Below, one piece after another: positions 26,361 through 27,458 of a DNA stretch of 46,220 bases (positions are counted from its first letter, which is position 1; every line of letters begins with the position of its first letter). Both the position numbers and the translations under genes were made by a program. Source of the DNA: Rhodospirillales bacterium (GTDB lineage Bacteria; Pseudomonadota; Alphaproteobacteria; ATCC43930; CGMCC-115725); the NCBI GenBank assembly GCA_019689675.1, contig JADGGZ010000005.1, positions 1 to 46,220 of the forward strand. The letters are read 5' to 3'. A model generated the notes under the pieces. That model made no database searches. It was not told the DNA's origin and saw only the letters and a list, made by a program, of their open reading frames with translations.

Positions 26361-26963
26361 ATGGCGACGAAGAAGCCGGATCCGGCCAGCCGCATCGTCG
26401 ACGCAGCCGTCGCTCTCGCCGCACGCCAGGGCTGGGCTCGGACGAGCCTCGCCGAGATTGCCGAGGAGGCCGGCCTGCCGCTCCTCGACGTCTATGCGCA
26501 TTTCCGCTCGAAGCCGGCGATCTTTGCCGCGTTTCTCGCGCGCATCGACCGGGCCGTGCTCGCCGGCGAGACGGAGGCGGGGGAGAAGCCGCGCGACCGG
26601 CTCTTCGAGACGCTGATGCGGCGATTCGACGCATTACGCCCTTACAGGGATGCGGTCCGGGCGATGCTGCGGGCGGGCCCCGCCGACCCGGTGGGCGCGC
26701 TTTGCTCGGCTCCCGCGTTTCTGGGCTCCGTCGCTTGGATGCTCGAAGCCTCGGGGATCGGAACGGGCGGGCTGCGCGGCGCTTTCCGGACCAATCTCGT
26801 CGCCGCGCTTTACCTTTCCGTGATGAGGACCTGGCTCGACGACGACACGGCCGACCTCATGAAGACGATGGCGGTTCTCGACCGCCGCCTCAAGAGCGTG
26901 GAAGGTCTCTTGGGATTATCGTCTTATGTTGCACCGCAAAAACCGCTTGACACCTCCGCCTAG
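26361..26963 (+). CDS. TetR-family transcriptional regulator
   Basis: 200 residues. The N-terminal helix-turn-helix (RIVDAAVALAARQGWARTSLAEIAEEAGLPLLDVYAHFRSK, about 11-51) is followed by a helical ligand domain with conserved WLDDDTADLMKTMAVLD. It starts 4 nt after the YbaK-like gene. The last codons overlap the -35 hexamer of the phasin promoter, so it lies directly upstream of phaP, but the operator there looks like a PhaR site rather than a TetR site. Confidence 0.85.
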   Translation: MATKKPDPASRIVDAAVALAARQGWARTSLAEIAEEAGLPLLDVYAHFRSKPAIFAAFLARIDRAVLAGETEAGEKPRDRLFETLMRRFDALRPYRDAVRAMLRAGPADPVGALCSAPAFLGSVAWMLEASGIGTGGLRGAFRTNLVAALYLSVMRTWLDDDTADLMKTMAVLDRRLKSVEGLLGLSSYVAPQKPLDTSA

Positions 26964-26977
26964 CGGGCACATATAGC
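26947..26977 (+). promoter_or_regulatory. Phasin gene promoter
   Basis: A perfect -35 TTGACA (26947-26952), 19-nt spacer and TATAGC (26972-26977). The -35 lies in the last codons of the TetR gene. The predicted start point falls at the edge of the 26983 palindrome, so a bound repressor would block initiation. Confidence 0.55.
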
Positions 26978-26982
26978 GGTCG

Positions 26983-26997
26983 TTGTGCACTGCACAA
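26983..26997. promoter_or_regulatory. PhaR-type operator before the phasin gene
   Basis: TTGTGCA-C-TGCACAA, a perfect 15-bp palindrome with a TGC-N3-GCA core, lies between the phasin promoter and start codon. PhaR repressors of alphaproteobacteria are known to bind TGC/GCA inverted repeats in phasin promoters and leave the DNA when PHA granules form. PhaR itself is not encoded in the window. Confidence 0.65.
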
Positions 26998-27029
26998 AAT
27001 CGCAGCCCGCCCCGGAACTGGAGAGAAAG

Positions 27030-27458
27030 ATGGTCAACGGCAACAACTTCTTCGACATGACGAGGGTCATGGCCGACTTCCGCGTGCCGACGCTCGATGT
27101 CGATGCGATGGTCGCCAGCCAGCGCAAGACGATCGAGGCTCTGACGCAGGCGAACCAGGTCGCCGTCGAGGGCGTGCAGGCGGTCGCGCGTCGGCAGGTC
27201 GAGATGGCCCGCCAGACGATCGAAGATCTCACCGGCCTCTTCCGCGAGATTGCGCAGCCCGGCACGCCGGAAGAGAAGCTGGCGAAGCAGGCCGAGGCCG
27301 CCAAGAACGCCCTCGAAAAGGGCGTCGCGAATGCCCGCGAACTCGCCGAGCTCGTCGCGAAGGCGAACACCGAGGCGTTCAACGTCCTCAACAAGCGGGT
27401 CGCCGAAGGCCTCGACGAGGTTCGCGACTACGCGAAGAAGCGCGCCGCGGCGAAGTAA
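27030..27458 (+). CDS. phaP: Phasin (PHA granule-associated protein)
   Basis: 142 residues, almost entirely amphipathic helix and free of cysteine. FFDMTRVMADFRVPTLDVDAMVASQRKTIEALTQAN and GVQAVARRQVEMARQTIEDL are typical of phasin family 2. The C-terminus is Ala/Lys-rich (YAKKRAAAK). Phasins coat polyhydroxyalkanoate granules and limit their coalescence. GGAGAG precedes the ATG. A strong promoter, a PhaR-like operator and a strong terminator show it is a single regulated transcription unit. Confidence 0.93.
   Translation: MVNGNNFFDMTRVMADFRVPTLDVDAMVASQRKTIEALTQANQVAVEGVQAVARRQVEMARQTIEDLTGLFREIAQPGTPEEKLAKQAEAAKNALEKGVANARELAELVAKANTEAFNVLNKRVAEGLDEVRDYAKKRAAAK

Follow-up and report, generated by a model that had tools for sequence, protein, structure and literature searches.

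The phasin locus and its promoter

The analysed window, 46,220 nt long, is one contig of a draft genome of 4.22 Mb and contains a phasin gene next to a gene of the TetR family (Table 1). PhaR is the switch that keeps the gene of the granule coat protein (phasin) off until bioplastic granules form. Two sites with a TGC-N3-GCA core, here termed O1 and O2, bracket the phasin promoter, and both carry this PhaR-type core with the published flanks. The centres of the two sites are 56 bp apart, and 5 bp separate the end of O1 from the -35 hexamer. Judged from the sequence, phasin transcription would start at about 26982-26983.

Table 1. Features of the phasin locus (positions refer to the window).
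Feature	Position	Strand	Remarks
tetR-family gene	26361-26963	+	PF00440 (TetR_N), 42.6 bits; neighbour of the phasin gene
O1, upstream PhaR-type site TGTTGCACCGCAAAA	26927-26941	.	within the 3' end of tetR; fits TKBTGCRNYGCAVMA
-35 hexamer TTGACA	26947-26952	+	read from the sequence; within the tetR ORF
-10 hexamer CATATA	26970-26975	+	17-bp spacer to TTGACA
O2, perfect palindrome TTGTGCACTGCACAA	26983-26997	.	predicted main PhaR operator, over the inferred start site
Ribosome-binding site GGAGAG	27020-27025	+	by eye; ATG 4 nt further on
Phasin gene	27030-27458	+	PF09361, 76.7 bits; TIGR01841, 80.3 bits (cut-off 30.2)

An earlier note, made from the sequence alone, had reported the perfect palindrome with its TGC-N3-GCA core and had placed the -35 hexamer in the last codons of tetR, and both descriptions proved accurate. 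Its proposal of a single PhaR-type operator is supported for O2 itself, but O1 was overlooked, and the operator is a pair. The distance of 6-20 nt that it gave between the -10 element and the palindrome applies to an alternative -10, TATAGC (26972-26977; spacer of 19 bp from TTGACA), whereas O2 begins 8 nt 3' of CATATA and thus lies 8-22 nt from it.

PhaR, phasins and motif sites in the genome

The phaR homologue that the earlier note had suggested looking for is encoded in the genome (TIGR01848, 155 bits, cut-off 109.45; 153.7 bits for the predicted protein alone; PF07879 and PF05233 also match), as are PhaC and four phasins of family PF09361. The closest named relatives found for the phasin belong to a MAG titled Rhodospirillales bacterium (72%), followed by Inquilinus limosus (50-51%).

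Perfect palindromes of the 7-1-7 type are not rare in the window, where 11 were counted against a mean of 5.55 over 20 base shuffles, so that the excess over chance lies in the full motif and its placement, not in the palindrome as such. The bare TGC-N3-GCA core occurs 19 times in the window. The full motif TKBTGCRNYGCAVMA, whose core and flanks agree with a published pattern of PhaR sites (PMC12849132), occurs there twice, as O1 and O2, both at the phasin promoter. The entire genome contains 14 full-motif sites, compared with one for the reversed control pattern, and the motif is specific enough for a regulon to be proposed from it. Two of the 14 sites are those of the window's phasin, two belong to a second phasin gene (on contig C387), and 10 are located elsewhere. 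At the second phasin gene, one site precedes a -35 hexamer TTGAAC and the other covers the -10/start region, and the locus (L009) showed no match to the tetR homologue. The expectation of further copies at PHA genes was thus borne out at the second phasin and in the vicinity of an mmgR homologue (see below), but not at phaC, phaR, and the two other phasins (contigs C396 and C413), which have no full-motif site upstream.

Conservation at the phasin promoters of relatives

The phasin search matched 49 of 61 genomes. The analysis covered 30 loci among the matches listed (own genome and 29 relatives, one locus each) and subsequently another 12 in 11 additional genomes; of the remaining eight genomes, G001, G002, and G010 were seen only as motif-site stretches and G004, G007, G014, G026, and G034 were left out. 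In the 220 bp that precede the phasin match, all 30 promoters contain at least one TGC-N3-GCA and 24 contain two, compared with 44 and 2, respectively, of 391 background windows, mostly coding stretches drawn from phaR loci. The hexamer TTGA[CA] is followed at a distance of 16-17 bp by a -10-like hexamer (loose expression) in 23 of the 30 loci, and in the loci with this pair the downstream 15-mer starts 4-8 nt past the -10. A position able to block phasin initiation has thus been kept in the relatives. The description of the promoter as strong found mixed support, as the hexamers are conserved in these 23 loci but a generic sigma-70 scan returned no promoter above its thresholds at the phasin promoter. 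The upstream site is located within the tetR ORF in five of the 30 loci. Measured between the O1 core and the -35, distances fall into apparent steps (7-12, 18-21, and 29 bp).

PhaR might bridge O1 and O2 as a pair in helical phase, in analogy to the LacI-like arrangement proposed for phaP1 of Ralstonia eutropha (PMC12849132). Within the window's family, the centre spacings do group at 54-58 and at 66-68 bp, two genera having 71 and 75 bp, respectively, but the Rayleigh test, run on spacing values that were entered by hand and stem from few independent lineages, gave p values of 0.03-0.10 for periods of 10-11 bp and did not support helical phasing. The three two-site loci of the next family, which includes Inquilinus, have a spacing of 19-20 bp, and for Sinorhizobium meliloti either copy was described as enough for binding (PMC12542648), and such bridging is therefore considered unlikely.

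Association of the motif with PhaR and TetR

A PhaR match was obtained in 49 and a TetR homologue (E <= 1e-15) in 48 of the 61 genomes, and since both proteins are this widespread, genomes that have one without the other are the informative ones. Sites of the form TGC-N3-GCA were sought in the 330 nt preceding the phasin match. Among the genomes with PhaR but without TetR, G044 has three sites and G050 two, and G052 has none at the match examined, which lies inside a longer frame; the genome with TetR but without PhaR, G053, has none. Where both proteins are missing, G046 and G060 lack a site and G059 has one that does not fit TGCRNYGCA. Where both are present, G047 and G051 have three sites each, one phasin of G055 has two and its other phasin none (a full-motif site lies about 510 nt before the match of the latter), and G054 has none at its phasin.

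Genome-wide counts of the full motif, given as forward/reversed control, were 164/15 in 12 PhaR-positive relatives, 105/20 in 11 PhaR-positive genomes of the class, and 7/3 in nine PhaR-negative genomes. The latter are mostly small, so that the PhaR-positive G050 (1.8 Mb; 15/0) is the only fair size match. No excess was found in G054 (4/6) and little in G041 (9/7). Three genomes, G017, G018, and G036 (completeness 70, 96, and 87), possess phasin sites and TetR without a PhaR match, perhaps owing to assembly gaps. Among the matches listed, 69 motif-site stretches from five genomes were looked at. Across genomes, the motif mostly goes with PhaR and, the exceptions named aside, not with the adjacent TetR.

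These data bear on the alternative that the palindrome serves the adjacent TetR-family protein as its operator, the protein acting on it alone or in competition with PhaR. The gene arrangement speaks for such a role, as a tetR homologue precedes the phasin gene in all 30 loci and in five of five further named loci, and so do the three genomes that hold TetR and sites without a PhaR match. However, sites are kept in the TetR-negative, PhaR-positive G044 and G050 and missing in the TetR-positive, PhaR-negative G053, the phasin of G054 has no site despite the presence of TetR, and the motif was rejected as a TetR operator on this pattern of co-occurrence. The second phasin of the own genome, located apart from tetR, has the same two sites, the 15-mer recurs in S. 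meliloti within a site bound by PhaR (PMC12542648), and no further repeated motif is conspicuous by eye between O1 and O2. Control by TetR through the palindrome is accordingly judged very unlikely. The dual control by PhaR and the neighbouring TetR that the earlier note had envisaged is likewise unsupported, because the motif mostly follows PhaR and not TetR, G017, G018, and G036 being opposite cases. The pairing of tetR and phasin genes itself is strongly conserved although the motif does not track TetR.

That the palindrome is a functionless chance inverted repeat, for which the frequency of such palindromes in the window could be adduced, is hardly credible in view of its conservation at the same place in relatives and the 14 genomic sites against one control.

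A probable two-operator PhaR element at the phasin promoter

PhaR very probably binds the palindrome, and we hold with high confidence that O2 is the start-site operator of a two-operator PhaR repression element at the phasin promoter. The interpretation of O2 as a PhaR-type operator, first offered in the earlier note, is supported by phaR in the genome, by the sites of the second phasin, and by the S. meliloti 15-mer. By analogy with characterised species, PhaR would bind both sites, repress the gene, and be titrated by the polymer. As long as polymer is absent, O2-bound PhaR would sit over the start site and O1-bound PhaR over the flank of the -35, so that RNA polymerase would be excluded. 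Once PHA granules form, PhaR would be titrated onto them, the operators would be vacated, and phasin would be made. Release of PhaR by titration onto granules has been described for characterised species (PMC12542648, PMC9049629, PMC12849132).

The finding is of a known kind, since S. meliloti has the 15-mer inside a site that PhaR binds and the layout resembles that of the R. eutropha footprints. In R. eutropha, the reported PhaR footprints on phaP1 cover the start region and the stretch immediately upstream of the -35 (PMC12849132); likewise, one of the window's sites lies just upstream of the -35 and the other would lie around the start, an arrangement like that of BS1 and BS2. O1 and O2 each agree with the motif YTKNTGCRNYGCANMAR of that study at 16 of 17 positions (hand count). 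R. eutropha differs in being a Betaproteobacterium and in having a third site predicted within the ORF, whereas the upstream site of the window sits in the tetR ORF. In S. meliloti, PhaR binds phaP1 DNA with TTATTGTGCACTGCACAAATT, which includes the exact 15-mer of O2, and EMSA shifts were lost when the palindromes were removed or mutated (PMC12542648). Both phaP1 and phaP2 of this organism have two PhaR (AniA) sites per promoter, and mmgR has a site too, but the phasin sites flank the -35 element there, whereas the window's sites flank the whole promoter (PMC12542648). According to citations in PMC12542648 and PMC10888616, the TGC-N3-GCA core also occurs at phasin genes of Rhodobacter sphaeroides, in the PhaR site CTGCNNNGCAG, and of Paracoccus denitrificans, in TGC-rich regions; the flanks differ, being CTGC...GCAG instead of the TGTGC...GCACA of O2. 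A two-site PhaR arrangement around a phasin promoter is thus already known from other bacteria, of which the present locus, by its resemblance to them, is a further example. The R. eutropha type of layout is widespread in the family of the window, and a predicted PhaR operator code is now set for a little-studied lineage near the Rhodospirillales.

A PhaR-like site at the mmgR homologue

A homologue of mmgR was identified at C67:736-808 (RF00519, 52.8 bits, cut-off 41). The PhaR-like site TTGTGCAGTGCGACA (C67:705-719) overlaps the end of a hexamer TAGATT, with TTGATT 17 bp away. RF00519 matched 51 of the 61 genomes, and 30 loci among the matches listed plus the own locus were examined, further matches in several genomes being left out. 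In 21 of these 31, TGCRNYGC[AG] occurs at -80 to -10, compared with 24 of 1238 background windows; the upstream expression required an eleventh letter and therefore missed G049, where a site is visible by eye. PhaR (AniA) represses mmgR in S. meliloti (PMC12542648, PMC8401924), and, judging by these sites, the known link between PhaR and mmgR seems to be conserved in the lineage studied here. For Caulobacter, four sibling RNAs were reported without a common promoter motif (PMC12559287), so that conservation of the link depends on the lineage. Matches to the Rfam families mir-9242 and SorY were below their cut-offs and were taken as chance.

PhaR-type sites upstream of ccr

Crotonyl-CoA carboxylase/reductase (Ccr) is the entry enzyme of the ethylmalonyl-CoA pathway. 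The ccr gene of the own genome (TIGR01751, 625.9 bits), which is divergent from a methylmalonyl-CoA-mutase-type gene, has a full-motif site at C143:16041-16055 (L053). Eleven sequences with at least 78% identity (L205-L215) were treated as ccr orthologues, L216, L218, and L219 (53-66%) were kept apart, and the contig fragments L217 and L220 of G041 were omitted. TGCRNYGCA is present within 230 nt upstream of 10 of the 11 orthologues, compared with 12 of 369 background windows, and upstream of none of the three more distant homologues. Besides the window's family, three others contribute orthologues with a site, and the orthologue without TGCRNYGCA, from G043 of a fourth, has CGCATCGCA. Full-motif sites were found at six of the 11, and the number and position of the sites vary.

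No report of PhaR acting on ccr was found in the open-access literature searched, outside of which most subscription papers lie, nor in passages of PMC6520949 and PMC7109303, and the PhaR-type sites upstream of ccr are thus a prediction for which this literature yielded no report. We tentatively suggest, giving the idea slightly less than even weight, that PhaR directly controls ccr in several alphaproteobacterial families, with the status of the granules setting the branch between C4 storage and assimilation, and that this control forms one storage-sensing regulon together with the conserved PhaR-mmgR link. If true, PhaR control of ccr would join carbon storage to the assimilation of acetyl-CoA.

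Other motif sites

The ten full-motif sites outside the phasin loci are regulon predictions of unequal weight. Besides ccr, they have as neighbours a gene for the beta subunit of succinate-CoA ligase, a peptidase gene whose weak Xaa-Pro matches stay below the cut-offs, either a small ORF or, opposite to it, a PQQ-dehydrogenase-like gene with a match below cut-off, and an unnamed ORF of 186 aa; one site lies on C67 at an ORF start some 150 nt 5' of the mmgR match, and one between ORFs near sdhB. Two RND efflux adaptor genes have an upstream full-motif site with an ATT centre (L006:1501-1515, C275; L055:1501-1515, C247), and these ATT-centred sites may belong to another regulator. On C14 (L002:1501-1515), a full-motif site lies just before a small ORF of about 55 aa (by eye) with two larger genes around it.

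Autoregulation of PhaR through the motif was rejected as a general rule, TGCRNYGCA being present upstream of phaR in 6 of 30 loci (none in the own genome) against 13 of 287 background windows. A shared regulon did not emerge either when the genes next to motif sites were clustered across six genomes with rough start codons: besides phasin (five genomes), only two-genome clusters were obtained, namely tetR, RND adaptors, a peptidase, and one more. In G001, two full-motif sites spaced 56 bp apart (C80:243738-243808, L114) are located upstream of a small ORF without a phasin match and possibly mark another PhaR-controlled unit.
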